From positions 62,001 through 126,000 of the forward strand of contig JAUQPB010000001.1 of NCBI GenBank assembly GCA_030550585.1: 64,000 nucleotides of DNA, in the 5' to 3' direction. Each line of letters begins with the position of its first letter. Position 1 is the stretch's first letter. The translations under genes were made by a program, and so were the position numbers. Source of the stretch: Thermoproteota archaeon. GTDB lineage: Archaea > Thermoproteota > Thermoprotei_A > Sulfolobales > Ignisphaeraceae. Under the pieces are notes generated by a model. The model worked only from the letters and a program-made list of their open reading frames with translations. It made no database searches and was not told the DNA's origin. Below are positions 14,054 to 20,185 of the stretch, in pieces.

Positions 14054-14449
14054 CTACTGCTCGGAGATTTCGATCCATGTTTTTCCCCTTCTAACATATC
14101 TTCTCCTCACATCTTCATAGATTTTCATTACCATTGTGTAAAACTCTTTGTCTGCGTATAGGACAGCACCTTCATCTAGTATTTCGAGTAGAAATGTGCT
14201 GCCAGCTCTAATTTTCTTGAGGAACACCTCTGTGTTGAAGCCTATGGGGTTGACGCTAGGATACCTAGCGTCTCGCAACATTGAGAACGCTTCTCTAGGG
14301 TCTTTCGGGAGGTCATCCGCAACAACCAAAATATCAATATCGCTTTCATCTGTGTAGTCCCCCCTCGCCCTAGAGCCAAAGAGTATAACAAGTTTTAGCA
14401 AAAACCTATTTCTATAGCTTTCAACCAGGCTCTTCAAATCATCTAACAA
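14054..14449 (-). CDS. MNT-type minimal nucleotidyltransferase
   Basis: LFGSRARGDYTDESDIDILVV nucleotidyltransferase motif. Confidence 0.9.
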   Translation of the reverse strand: MLDDLKSLVESYRNRFLLKLVILFGSRARGDYTDESDIDILVVADDLPKDPREAFSMLRDARYPSVNPIGFNTEVFLKKIRAGSTFLLEILDEGAVLYADKEFYTMVMKIYEDVRRRYVRRGKTWIEISEQ

Positions 14450-14822
14450 TGCTTTTCACCCACTCTACAATCCTCTTAGCACATTCCAAACATCTATCGG
14501 CATCTTCTCTAGAGTAGTAGTCTAGAGGAGCACCCTCATCATATACATCCGGGTATCTAGTGGGGATATAGTGTTTATCCAACTCCAAAATGCATCTCCT
14601 CACATCCTCTGGCACCTCAACAGAAACCTCAGAAACTAGGTAGAGGAGCGAGTGGCCTCTCCTCTCCCTATGAAAATAGTTTAGAAGAGCCTTAACAGCC
14701 TTCTCAGCAGCCTGGTGAGACTCGAAACATGCCTCCTCATATAAACCCTCACTGTAGTTAATATGCGCAGAACTCAAATTTCTCTCAGATTGTCTTAGCC
14801 AGTCCCTATATCTAGAAACCAA
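14439..14822 (-). CDS. HEPN domain protein
   Basis: LRQSERNLSSAHINYSEGLYEEACFESHQAAEKAVKALL typical HEPN; overlaps MNT gene by 11 nt. Confidence 0.9.
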   Translation of the reverse strand: MVSRYRDWLRQSERNLSSAHINYSEGLYEEACFESHQAAEKAVKALLNYFHRERRGHSLLYLVSEVSVEVPEDVRRCILELDKHYIPTRYPDVYDEGAPLDYYSREDADRCLECAKRIVEWVKSIVR

Positions 14823-15455: not shown

Positions 15456-16079
15456 TTAATTATTTTGGCGCTGTTTTCTCTTCAGAAGCGTTATAATTGT
15501 GATTGCTATGATTGTTGCTGTTAGAGAGAATATGCCTGCGAGTAAAGCTGTTGCTAGATATGATTCACTGAAATCTCTTGCCAGACCCCCTATTAGTGAT
15601 CCAGTAATAGATGCCAGCATTACAGCTGATGTTTGTATGCCAAGCAACCTCCCCATGTTCTCTCTACCAAAAAGTGTTGGTATGAGAAGCATGTGGACGA
15701 CAGGCTCCCCTCCAAATGCTAGAAATCTAAGCCACAACATTGTGATGACTGGGTACACGCCATATCCAGTAAGGCTTAGAGCTAGGAAAACTGTAGCTGT
15801 CTCTAGAGAATATAGAAGGGGGAGTGCTGTAAAAATACCCAATCACATAGTAGCAAACCCCCATGCAAAGGCCCCCAAACTCTGTAAAATACCAGATATG
15901 CTCATGACAAGTGGTACATAAACTTCATTTGCCACCTCTACATCTACACCAGAAGCAATACAAAAATCTGCTATTATAGGGGCTAGGAACTGCATAAGCA
16001 TGGTCGAGGAGGTGGCTATGAGGAATATAGGTATAAGCGTCATTATAAAAGATCCTTTTGCTACTGTTCTAGCTTTCAT
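15456..16079 (-). pseudogene. MFS transporter remnant (truncated, in-frame TGA)
   Basis: Two same-frame ORFs (15843-16079 and 15456-15842) separated by TGA; together about 206 aa, roughly half a usual MFS length. Confidence 0.65.
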
Positions 16080-16556
16080 GAGAGTTCATGTTGGTTGATA
16101 TCAATTTTGCTTAGTCACCTTGGTGTCACTAGATATGTAGATACTGTGTGCCTGTTTAGCCCTCTTGTTTTCATAACTCTCTTGCACTCGTCTGAATTAG
16201 ATGCACCCTTTAGATTTACAAGCACCACACGTAGTCCTTCTTCAAGCTCTTTAGCACTCTGTGTGGCACAAGTTGTCTCTTAGCGAATTTGCTTATCCTC
16301 CTGATTAACCGTAGGATCCTTAGCGAATTTGAAGAGATTCCCAAATAATGCATGAGTTGCCACAAGCTTTCTCAATACTAATTATATGGGATGGTTGTAG
16401 CACAATCATGATGGCCTTCAGTCTATAAAGTAGGACTCCTATGAAGTAGGACTGTTATTCATGATAAAACATTTTAAAATACTTCAGGCTATATGATTTA
16501 AGCACAATCGCAAATGTACTTTACATATACCCAGCCTACTTGCATATCGCAGTATT

Positions 16557-16682
16557 CTACCCCCTTCCTCCGCATGTAAAGTAGGGACATGCAATACCAC
16601 AAGCTGCTAGAATGCCGAATATTGCTATTACTATTATAATAAGCACTACAATTACTACGGGATATATAGCTTTCTTGAGGTT
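16557..16682 (-). other. Possible Cys-rich hydrophobic mini-ORF (open frame, no canonical start at its 5' end)
   Basis: Manual translation: NLKKAIYPVVIVVLIIIVIAIFGILAACGIACPYFTCGGRG-stop; -1 frame relative to the 3' end of the 88-aa ORF. Confidence 0.3.
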
Positions 16683-16921
16683 CTACGGGCAATACCATAT
16701 GTAATCGTAGATGCGATTGCAACACTTATTATGATGAGAAGTGGTGTGGCCTCAAATATTGTTGCATTGCCAGATTTCTCCACATTGACAAGCAGGCTTG
16801 GAGTACTGTGTGTTGCAATGGAGTACAGTGCAATGCCTATAAGAAATATTGTATTAATCAGTAACGTTAATACTATGACTAGTACTGCTAAGGCAATGTA
16901 TCGCACAACACTGTGGTTCAT
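16655..16921 (-). CDS. Small two-TM membrane protein (88 aa)
   Basis: MNHSVVRYIALAVLVIVLTLLINTIFLIGIALYS...TPLLIIISVAIASTITYGIARRTSRK; same strand as the ABC operon. Confidence 0.5.
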   Translation of the reverse strand: MNHSVVRYIALAVLVIVLTLLINTIFLIGIALYSIATHSTPSLLVNVEKSGNATIFEATPLLIIISVAIASTITYGIARRTSRKLYIP

Positions 16922-17073
16922 AGTTTCTAACCCCCTATTACATAGTATGGGTTGGGACGGTTTTCAACTTTTATCACCATGATAAATTTTAGAGTAATAC
17001 AATAGAAGTTATGCTTAGAACATGCACACTAGTTCATTAAAAGCACGAACTTATGTATGATATTGTCTAAAAG

Positions 17074-17235
17074 ATGAAATGGGCAAGCAAAGAAAAGATA
17101 GTTTCTGAAGATATCTTGTTGATTTATTCAGAAGTGGGTGTGAATATGACACCAAAACTCTTAGATGACTCACCACGTAATTGTTTTACACTTAGCTTTA
17201 AACATGATGTTGTAGGAATGCATAACAGAATATAA
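17074..17235 (+). other. Candidate small ORF (53 aa)
   Basis: MKWASKEKIVSEDILLIYSEVGVNMTPKLLDDSPRNCFTLSFKHDVVGMHNRI-stop; below the 60-aa cut-off of the ORF track. Confidence 0.3.
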
Positions 17236-17266
17236 TTATTCTTACATTGGTTAATATCTTTTTGCA

Positions 17267-17437
17267 ATGTGGATAAAAAGGGAAATAAAGGAGGTGCTAA
17301 TGGAGATACAACACATAAGATTACTTTGTTTCACATGTCTTTTAGGCAGTGGATCGGGTTATTGTCTGCTTTGTTGCTCTATAGCGCAACTCATCTGTAT
17401 GAAGTACGCTTGTGTTTGGAATTTCTTTGTGGAATAG
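17267..17437 (+). other. Candidate Cys-rich small ORF (56 aa; internal ATG at 17300 after GGAGGTG)
   Basis: MWIKREIKEVLMEIQHIRLLCFTCLLGSGSGYCLLCCSIAQLICMKYACVWNFFVE-stop; 3' part antisense to the ABC ATPase gene end. Confidence 0.3.
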
Positions 17438-18016
17438 CTCTATAAGGCGATTTTCTCTACTTGTTATAATTACTGCGCTATAGTTTTTGATATTCTTCAC
17501 AATGTCTGCAAGAAGTGGGAGGCCCTCGTCATCTAGCCCCACAGTGGGATCGTCTATTGCTATAAACCGCACCTTCTTCTTTACCACAATTGCTGTAGAT
17601 AGCTGTAGACGCCTCCTCTGGCCTTGGCTAAGCTTGGCTATAAGCACCTTTCTTGGTATATCAACAATAGCCAGAGCCTCTTCCACAGATTCGCTATCAG
17701 CCTTGTAGAGCAGTGCTATAGTCTTGACATAATCTTCAGCTGTTATACTTACTGGTAGTGTTGTGGTCTCTGGAACTAGGTAAATAAAGCTTGCTGTTCT
17801 ACTAGGTTCACCTCCACAGCAGATTATTCGCCCCTGCAAGGGCTTTCGAAGCCCAGTAAGCGTCTTGAGAAGAGTTGTCTTACCAGATCCGTTGGGTCCA
17901 AATACTATGAGCACATCACCTAGCCGCAACCTAAGGTTGAGGGGGCCAAGGAGCGGATTACCTGGATATCCTACTACAAGTCCCTGAGTCTCAAGCACAT
18001 AGCCATCTTTCACCAT
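17342..18016 (-). CDS. ABC transporter ATP-binding protein
   Basis: GPNGSGKTTLLK Walker A, LSQGQRRRLQLS signature, RFIAIDDPTVGLDDEG Walker B. Confidence 0.92.
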   Translation of the reverse strand: MVKDGYVLETQGLVVGYPGNPLLGPLNLRLRLGDVLIVFGPNGSGKTTLLKTLTGLRKPLQGRIICCGGEPSRTASFIYLVPETTTLPVSITAEDYVKTIALLYKADSESVEEALAIVDIPRKVLIAKLSQGQRRRLQLSTAIVVKKKVRFIAIDDPTVGLDDEGLPLLADIVKNIKNYSAVIITSRENRLIELFHKEIPNTSVLHTDELRYRATKQTITRSTA

Positions 18017-18483
18017 ATCTTTCCCCTCATGTCAATAGATTGATTAAATGCCCCTATAAAATCTGCTAGAGATAATACAACCATGACAAGGTAGAGCATA
18101 ATATAGATTGTATTTCTTGATATGAATATTACAGGGAATGCTAAGATCGAGGGTATTATGAGGCTCCAGACTGCGGAGCACAACAGCAATGATGTATCTG
18201 TACAATCAACCTCTACTACAATCCTCATACCCTGCCAGTACACAGCAACTTCCTTGTTCTTAAGAGGTACCAGATGACCAACTTCGTGTAGAAATAGTAA
18301 TATGAAACCAAAGCTAACATATAGCATGGCATCAATGGCTTTCCATACTGTACAATACCTCAATACTGTGAGACATGGTAGCACAACTATAATTACGGCA
18401 ATCACATAGAGAAGTAGCAGTCTCGGGTCTACGCGCCTTATAAGAAGGAGAAGGTTAGAAATAATTGACTTCATCATCACCAC
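18010..18483 (-). CDS. Membrane-embedded HExxH metallopeptidase-like protein (M50/DUF3267-like)
   Basis: Multi-TM with LLFLHEVGHLVPL (HEVGH) in a hydrophobic segment; overlaps both neighbouring genes. Confidence 0.65.
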   Translation of the reverse strand: MVMMKSIISNLLLLIRRVDPRLLLLYVIAVIIVVLPCLTVLRYCTVWKAIDAMLYVSFGFILLFLHEVGHLVPLKNKEVAVYWQGMRIVVEVDCTDTSLLLCSAVWSLIIPSILAFPVIFISRNTIYIMLYLVMVVLSLADFIGAFNQSIDMRGKIW

Positions 18484-19706
18484 CTCTTTGCATGGAACGT
18501 ATATAGCTGAGGAATGAGGCCTTTGGCTATGGCTATGAGGTAAACCGCAAGGACTGGGGCTAGAGAGGCTATGGCTAAGGTCGTGAGAGATAGGTTGTAG
18601 CGTATAACAAGCTGTTCATACACAAACATCAGTGCTATGTAGATGAGTATGAGCCTCGAATAAGTGTCTTTGTTCTCTGGGTCGACAAGACTAATAATTG
18701 CTGCTTTTACCGAGGCCGCGATAACTGCTTCAAGGTTTGAGAGAGATCCGATACCAGCTATAACAAAGGATGCAAATGCAGCTATGAGAACTGCTGTGCC
18801 ATAGAGCATCGACACCACTATGTTTATTGCAACAATCAATGCTCCGTAAAGTCCACGAATATAGGGTGCAAAATGCGCTTCAATGAAGCGTGTGGCTGCA
18901 AAAGGCAGGGACTCTAGAAGCCTCAATAATAATTGAAGGGCTGACCACAGCGAGGCAATAGCGTAGATCTCAAAATGCTTTGCCGGATCTAAGGGGCCGA
19001 CAATGGCAACAGAAGTAGATAATGGGCTGGCGAAGAGCCGGATCTGGTCTTTGGGAATAATATATGCAAGGACTAGCGACGAAAGGAGAACCGGCCCTAT
19101 AAGAAGGGCTACGAAAACCGGGTGCTGGATAGCTATAGGCACTTTGCCTATTGTTAACAGCTTAACCTTTGGTATTCTTGCAAGCGCATAGACTATTTCT
19201 CCCCCAATCGAAAGTATTATGAAGGCTGTGGCTGTGTATGCATCAAATGCATAGACAACTAGACCTGCTATCACGCCGTAGAGTGGGCGAACAAGAAGAG
19301 TTAGATAGGCTATCGAAAAGAAGAATAAGACTATCACAGCTTTTGCAGGTTCTAGCACCCCTATGTAAACTGCTACAGCAGCTGGAACTAGAAACACCAA
19401 TGTATTCAGCAATACAGAGGGTATCAGAAGCTTCCTAGCCACCAGAAGATGCTCAACTCCAAGAACATGAAGTGGATTAGCAGACAGTGCCAACATCACA
19501 GCTAAAAGAGTGTAGTAGAGGAGAAATAGTATGTGGATACAATCCCCTAGTACTGCCATAGGAAGTAAAAGTAGGAAGCTGCTGAATCGAAGTAGCAAAA
19601 AGGTGAAAAAGATTGTTAAGGCTACAATCATAAGCCAGCTTGGCCTCTTAATGTACGCCTTGAGCAATACTTTCATAAGAGATATCTGGTGGATCTGGTG
19701 GTGCAT
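18477..19706 (-). CDS. Polytopic membrane protein, probable ABC permease of the same operon
   Basis: 409 aa, many TM segments, overlaps the HEVGH gene. Confidence 0.65.
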   Translation of the reverse strand: MHHQIHQISLMKVLLKAYIKRPSWLMIVALTIFFTFLLLRFSSFLLLLPMAVLGDCIHILFLLYYTLLAVMLALSANPLHVLGVEHLLVARKLLIPSVLLNTLVFLVPAAVAVYIGVLEPAKAVIVLFFFSIAYLTLLVRPLYGVIAGLVVYAFDAYTATAFIILSIGGEIVYALARIPKVKLLTIGKVPIAIQHPVFVALLIGPVLLSSLVLAYIIPKDQIRLFASPLSTSVAIVGPLDPAKHFEIYAIASLWSALQLLLRLLESLPFAATRFIEAHFAPYIRGLYGALIVAINIVVSMLYGTAVLIAAFASFVIAGIGSLSNLEAVIAASVKAAIISLVDPENKDTYSRLILIYIALMFVYEQLVIRYNLSLTTLAIASLAPVLAVYLIAIAKGLIPQLYTFHAKRW

Positions 19707-19790: not shown

Positions 19791-19940
19791 CTATTCAGCA
19801 GTAGTGTAGACAACTACAACCACCTCTTTTCCATGCAGGTGCCCCATCTTCTCGGCAACGCTCTTAGGGATGTAGATGCCTAGAGACCTCCCTCTACCAA
19901 GCTTCGAGATAGTAGCCCTAAACACATAGACCTCAGACAT
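19791..19940 (-). CDS. AbrB/SpoVT-like DNA-binding protein (antitoxin-like, 49 aa)
   Basis: MSEVYVFRATISKLGRGRSLGIYIPKSVAEKMGHLHGKEVVVVVYTTAE; start reassigned to 19940, upstream extension in the ORF track appears spurious. Confidence 0.7.
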   Translation of the reverse strand: MSEVYVFRATISKLGRGRSLGIYIPKSVAEKMGHLHGKEVVVVVYTTAE

Positions 19941-20007
19941 CTTCCGTCTCCAATACAGGTAAGAGACAGAAAAACTTATAAGCTTTTCAGTTACATGTTT
20001 ATATCGA

Positions 20008-20185
20008 GAGCGACACAAGGAACTCGATGAGCAGTTGCGAGAGGGAGGAAGTCGCTCAATGAGGCTCTGTGTTCGCCCGAGGGAGGCAGGCTCCCGAAGG
20101 GCGGGCACAAAAGCCAGACAGGGGGTGATGAGGCGAGCGGAGATATCAACCATCATGAACCGCTATGAAACCAGAACCCCTAACC
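20008..20185 (+). ncRNA. Candidate structured non-coding RNA (or IS/MITE-derived RNA element)
   Basis: GC-rich island. Helices GAGCGAC(20008-20014)/GTCGCTC(20051-20057), GTGTTCGCCC(20069-20078)/GGGCGGGCAC(20099-20108) with inner GGGAG/CTCCC. TATA-like cttataagc at 19975-19983. 3' end uncertain. Confidence 0.5.

Follow-up and report, generated by a model that had tools for sequence, protein, structure and literature searches.

A candidate archaeal cassette for peptide export and self-immunity with a cysteine-tailed membrane precursor

Layout of the Locus

What is served by a presumed ABC permease, a small membrane protein with a peptidase-like motif and an ABC ATPase, encoded one behind the other beside very short open reading frames (ORFs), is the question raised by positions 16557-19706 of the window, i.e., the whole 64,000-nucleotide stretch of archaeal DNA analysed here. 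The original prediction was a system for peptide secretion, self-immunity or signalling.

Re-reading of the ORF list and of the window sequence confirmed three minus-strand genes of the described sizes, overlapping by 7 bases each: a polytopic membrane protein of 409 aa (18477..19706), an M50-like membrane protein of 157 aa (18010..18483) with HEVGH at residues 66-70 (18274..18288), and an ABC ATPase of 224 aa (17342..18016). The 409-aa protein is the presumed ABC permease, named so from position and topology only; a seven-member alignment was obtained for it. No relative of it was found in Pfam, NCBIfam or the PDB, and the 157-aa protein likewise gave no Pfam or NCBIfam family match. Neither protein had a relative in ten genomes of the same genus, and direct searches with both returned nothing in 60-147 relatives or in the genome contigs, because both diverge too fast; the ATPase alone led to the family. 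The arrangement exceeds chance: small multi-TM HExxH proteins number five in the 1.76-Mb genome, two of which are flanked by a permease and an ATPase of these kinds, and the cysteine motif described below has two exact matches in 214 genomes.

Regarding the surroundings, the HEPN/MNT pair noted earlier was recovered at 14054-14822 (minus strand; HEPN Pfam 1.3e-35, nucleotidyltransferase (MNT) 4.2e-11). A truncated, frame-broken MFS transporter gene lies at 15456-16079 (minus strand), with a 70% DNA-identical stretch elsewhere in the same genome (L187:17400-17929). Upstream of the module are a 48-aa AbrB/MazE-like ORF at 19791-19937 (minus strand; Pfam E 0.007, below the cut-off) and, upstream of the permease gene, a GC-rich, well-folding stretch at 19990-20160 (z -2.5), which is single-copy in the genome and had no Rfam match.

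The Small ORFs as One Interrupted Precursor Gene

The ORFs following the ATPase had been taken for a separate 88-aa two-TM protein and several genes of less than 60 aa. To the contrary, when a precursor HMM derived solely from six other loci was run against the window in six frames (2,420 segments), it returned three significant segments, namely the 88-aa ORF, the frame with CGIACPYFTC and the frame ending in ..VEYCDMQVGWVYVKYICDCA (E 1.3e-4, 1.4e-5 and 8.8e-5); the next segment had an E of 0.59. The 88-aa ORF (16655-16921), a 29-aa ORF (16557-16646) and part of a 75-aa frame (16498-16725) are consecutive pieces. As read from these matches, the small ORFs are one gene of ~140 aa (16498..16921, minus strand), interrupted by two frameshifts or sequencing errors and spread over three reading frames in the assembly. 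It encodes a precursor-like protein with three TM segments and a Cys-rich C-terminal tail. Piece 1, the 88-aa ORF, holds the N-terminus, TM1, the predicted outside loop, TM2 and the basic, predicted inside loop; piece 2 (16560..16682) holds TM3 and the first three tail cysteines (..AACGIACPYFTC..), including CGIACPYFTC (16572..16601); piece 3 (16498..16562, upper boundary approximate) holds the last part of the tail with three more cysteines. The interval 16557-19706 thus stops about 60 bases short of the end of this gene.

Short runs of C or G are located at or close to both frame breaks. That the double frameshift is programmed is unlikely, given the intact precursors at L047, L136, L099, L100, L134 and L097. 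The end of the window tail is close to that of genome G359 (..VLSCGLEVGWLYVKNICLC).

Over the whole own genome, the precursor HMM matched two loci only, and a DNA-level search for CGxACPxxTC in 214 genomes of the order gave exactly two matches, one at the window locus and one at a second locus of the same genome. The product being Cys-rich, the earlier idea of a disulfide-free peptide became unlikely.

Distribution and Transfer of the Module

The second locus, on contig C7 (stretch L047), also contains the best other ATPase match. Its operon encodes a Cys-tail protein of 150 aa, a polytopic protein of 465 aa, a membrane protein of 163 aa with HELVH and the ATPase; the Cys-tail gene precedes the permease gene, whereas it follows the ATPase gene in the window. 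Both tails carry CGxACPxxTC. Pairwise BLAST of the window and L047 permeases and M50-like proteins was not significant, and their homology is judged from the order of the genes, the topology, HExxH and the alignments of the family.

A two-row ATPase profile was run over 398 genomes, followed by an eight-row profile. Further modules were found in G354, G309, G324, G270, G489, G501, G359 and G191. Relatives match the archaeal 16S model; the 16S matches of G359, G250 and G324 (L144, L145, L147-L151) fall into several pieces, as with introns. Altogether, nine genomes have the four genes for precursor, permease, M50-like protein and ATPase at a total of ten loci, both copies of the own genome among them, with the precursor intact at most loci. 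The distribution is patchy, comprising 2 of 212 genomes of the own order and 2 of 27 and 5 of 19 elsewhere. Homologues lacking a small gene nearby, which would have spoken against the original prediction, were looked for: all ten readable loci have an adjacent Cys-tail gene. Decay is common and affects the precursor in the window, the M50-like gene in G270 and the ATPase in G359. In the clade of the G324 type, an extra membrane protein of ~144 aa follows the ATPase (L099:6613-7047, minus; L101:2187-2618, plus; L102:6645-7094, minus; L100:2886-3131, plus, cut), a candidate immunity or accessory protein.

L047 and L136, from genomes of different families of the order, share 88% DNA identity over 3.09 kb, i.e., the four genes plus about 0.1 kb around them, and the homology ends at the module edges. 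Synonymous divergence in this module is only 0.14-0.55, as compared with a 9-16% difference in segments of the rRNA locus (same-genus stand-in G003 versus G191, since no 16S match was obtained in the own assembly). By these sequence comparisons, the module was recently transferred as a unit between two archaeal families.

Searches of viral contigs with the pattern and the ATPase gave unrelated matches; plasmids yielded general ABC ATPases only, the best named one being of the lantibiotic protection LanF type, and PADLOC gave generic ATPase matches only. The cassette family is new at the family level, with no description found in the libraries and literature searched.

Precursor Anatomy and Tail Variation

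The precursors have three TM segments and tails of ~33-66 residues, mostly with six cysteines and a CxC near the end. Lysine and arginine per residue amount to 0.200 at the N-terminus and 0.193 in the second loop, versus 0.064 in the first loop and 0.076 in the tail; the averages are approximate, since TM segments of L047 and L136 were wrongly placed by the simple picker used. By this positive-inside pattern, the N-terminus and the second loop are predicted to be cytoplasmic, and the first loop and the Cys tail to face the exterior.

Stretch L097 encodes six paralogous precursors with a common body and different tails, varying in the number and spacing of cysteines. In copies p3 and p5, 260 bp of body DNA are 98% identical, and the tails are without detectable similarity. 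A second HEVGH membrane protein without a permease or ATPase of its own is encoded at the end of this array (L097:12199-12618, plus strand).

Between L047 and L136, dN/dS increased from 0.18 (ATPase) over 0.28 (M50-like protein), 0.44 (permease) and 0.71 (precursor) to 1.23 (precursor tail). Conservation is lowest in the tail, at 51% identity versus 92% for the ATPase, and all six tail cysteines are kept. The nonsynonymous and synonymous counts of tail and ATPase differed (p = 0.0008); the tail value above 1 is itself not significant (bootstrap 0.43-4.66). In the second close pair, L100/L102, the contrast between body and tail was absent (tail 0.46, body 0.80). Diversifying selection on the precursor tail is therefore suggested, not established.

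Two States of the M50-like Protein

In the window protein, H66, E67 and H70 lie in a TM helix and Asp141, the candidate third zinc ligand, lies in a later one. HExxH together with the Asp of the last helix is present in five proteins (window, L047, L136 and two L097 copies) and is kept despite identities of only 14-22% between the window protein and other HExxH members. Five further proteins (L098, L099, L100, L101 and L134) carry HExxQ instead, with Arg replacing the Asp, and the broken gene of L102 reads QExxQ. HExxH, whose lack in orthologues would have spoken against the original prediction, is thus conserved in half of the family, and proteolysis by the M50-like protein cannot be universal. 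The joint loss of HExxH and Asp supports the Asp as the probable third zinc ligand and marks a putative pseudo-protease branch.

The Pfam M50 model did not match the window protein and matched an L097 member below the cut-off (E 0.006, 16.4 vs 27.2 bits). A single-sequence AlphaFold model of the 157-aa protein had a low pLDDT of 62; its order of helix, hairpin, helix, helix would fit the M50 core at low confidence, and a Foldseek search with this model was uninformative.

An ABC ATPase Subfamily with Altered Catalytic Residues

The window ATPase matched Pfam ABC_tran at 1.4e-18 (68.2 bits, cut-off 25) with Walker A, signature and Walker B present. Its best NCBIfam match was CcmA, below the cut-off (87.7 vs 131.6 bits). 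Within the own order, the family members scored 244-265 bits with the ATPase profile, and no other sequence exceeded 120.

In the window, Walker B reads IDDP, with Asp for the catalytic Glu (17546..17557, minus strand), and the H-loop reads IITSR, lacking the switch His (17456..17470, minus strand). Both changes were found in 9/9 aligned module ATPases, as compared with background archaeal ATPases, which have DEP in ten of ten and the switch His in nine of ten cases. Changes of the catalytic Glu or the switch His in ABC proteins lead one to expect slow or regulated hydrolysis; this would therefore be expected of the module ATPases.

Among solved structures, the module profile best matched PDB 1SGW (E 1.1e-57, 198 bits; next 107), a putative ABC ATPase which we take to be a Pyrococcus furiosus protein. 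By profile, 1SGW belongs to the same distinct subfamily, and it shares the DDP Walker B and the missing switch His.

Proposed Function and Alternatives

We interpret the module as a transferable cassette of a Cys-tail precursor, a permease, an M50-like protein and an unusual ATPase that would yield an exported peptide and self-immunity, most likely an archaeocin; we regard this as about evenly balanced between right and wrong. The tail would fold outside the cell into a disulfide-stabilised peptide of ~35-50 residues. Where HExxH...D is kept, the M50-like protein may cut in or near TM3 and free the tail; at HExxQ...R loci, another protease might do so or the tail might stay anchored. The permease/ATPase pair would export or expel the peptide and thereby provide self-immunity; a separate immunity gene was not recognised. 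The window precursor is either mis-sequenced or broken, and if truly broken, the locus may be an immunity-only remnant beside the intact C7 copy. Of the original prediction, the export and self-immunity core thus gained support from the adjacent Cys-tail precursor, patchiness, transfer and the divergent tails, and a known unrelated function of the homologues was searched for and not found; the small ORFs, the disulfide-free product and a universal HExxH did not hold. Competition between related archaea would be the likeliest use; the patchy occurrence, the transfer, the decay and the exchange of tails favour it over signalling, adhesion and metal handling. The three TM segments of the precursors, being unusual for bacteriocins, count against an archaeocin, as do the loss of the zinc motif in half of the M50-like proteins and the lack of a conserved modification enzyme and of a recognisable immunity gene.

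The same three segments would suit a membrane-anchored tail that serves surface recognition or adhesion between kin or strains, with permease, ATPase and M50-like protein handling assembly or turnover instead of release. The lack of an encoded active protease at HExxQ loci and the L097 tail mosaics, which also resemble antigen-like variation, agree with such a role. We nevertheless consider it rather improbable, as the retention of HExxH and Asp in proteins so divergent from the window protein needs a reason, and a single module with an ABC pair that is transferred patchily is reminiscent of toxin/immunity cassettes.

Metal or cofactor handling, in which the Cys tail binds a metal moved by a CcmA/NosF-like ABC module, could draw on the Cys-rich tail with its CxC end and on the sub-threshold CcmA match. 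It is quite unlikely in view of the fast divergence of the non-Cys tail residues, the differing Cys number and spacing of the six L097 tails, and a patchy accessory distribution unlike that of cofactor maturation. An extracellular, pheromone-like signal, processed or received by the ABC/M50-like module, would be served by the same anatomy, and intramembrane metalloproteases are used by bacterial pheromone systems. We judge a signal slightly more doubtful still, since the ten loci have no conserved receptor or regulator gene next to the module and several different tails in one genome fit one signal poorly. That the locus is a stand-alone efflux or resistance transporter with an incidental small gene, as the broken window precursor beside three intact genes might indicate, is very improbable, given that the Cys-tail gene adjoins every readable locus and travels inside the transferred 3.09-kb unit.

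Returning to the exported, archaeocin-like peptide, a wider and more tentative possibility is a class of archaeal antagonism or recognition systems with tethered precursors of one body and swapped Cys-rich tails, a hydrolysis-impaired ATPase and a protease or pseudo-protease partner, mobile across archaeal orders and possibly reaching Thermococcales via the 1SGW lineage. Antagonistic peptides are almost unknown from hyperthermophilic archaea, and the combination of a DDP/no-His ATPase with a Cys-tail three-TM protein provides a searchable gene signature. Candidate mature peptides, presumably of very high heat stability, come with it, and a protein that occurs both as protease and as pseudo-protease in one genetic context lends itself to a natural comparison.

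Comparison with Known Systems

Half of the module M50-like proteins resemble peptidase family M50 (site-2 proteases) in having HExxH at a TM helix end and an Asp in a later TM helix (five members); the other half differ by HExxQ and an Asp-to-Arg exchange, and the Pfam match is sub-threshold in one member.

Sulfolobicins, the archaeocins of Sulfolobus, are comparable as membrane-associated proteins of archaeal antagonism from the same broad group (PMC4609331, PMC10105419), and together with halocins they are the two archaeocin types named (PMC10105419). Neither an ABC/M50-like module nor a Cys-tail pattern was described for them in the literature searched.

The closest layout is that of epeXEPAB (yydFGHIJ) of Bacillus subtilis, where a precursor, an M50-type protease and a two-gene ABC transporter share one operon (PMC12871923, PMC10885120, PMC5808125); EpeX is processed by the M50 peptidase EpeP, and immunity is provided by EpeAB (PMC12871923, PMC10885120). 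The likeness is one of layout, as the module permease and precursor have no family match. The epeXEPAB precursor is a short linear peptide, in contrast to the three-TM module precursor with its Cys-rich C-terminal tail; the module is archaeal, its ATPase has altered catalytic residues and half of its M50-like proteins lack the zinc motif. Moreover, epeXEPAB includes a radical-SAM epimerase. Neither the scanned neighbours in the window nor the modules of the other loci include one, and no modification enzyme is conserved across the module loci; a radical-SAM-like protein (CNLSCIMC) is encoded ~5 kb from the L097 module (L097:1329-2606, plus strand) and is not conserved elsewhere. By analogy, the module is best read as a bacteriocin-like system of archaea that resembles epeXEPAB but lacks the radical-SAM enzyme. 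Because this defining enzyme is absent, we do not file the locus as an epipeptide locus, but it may work like one.
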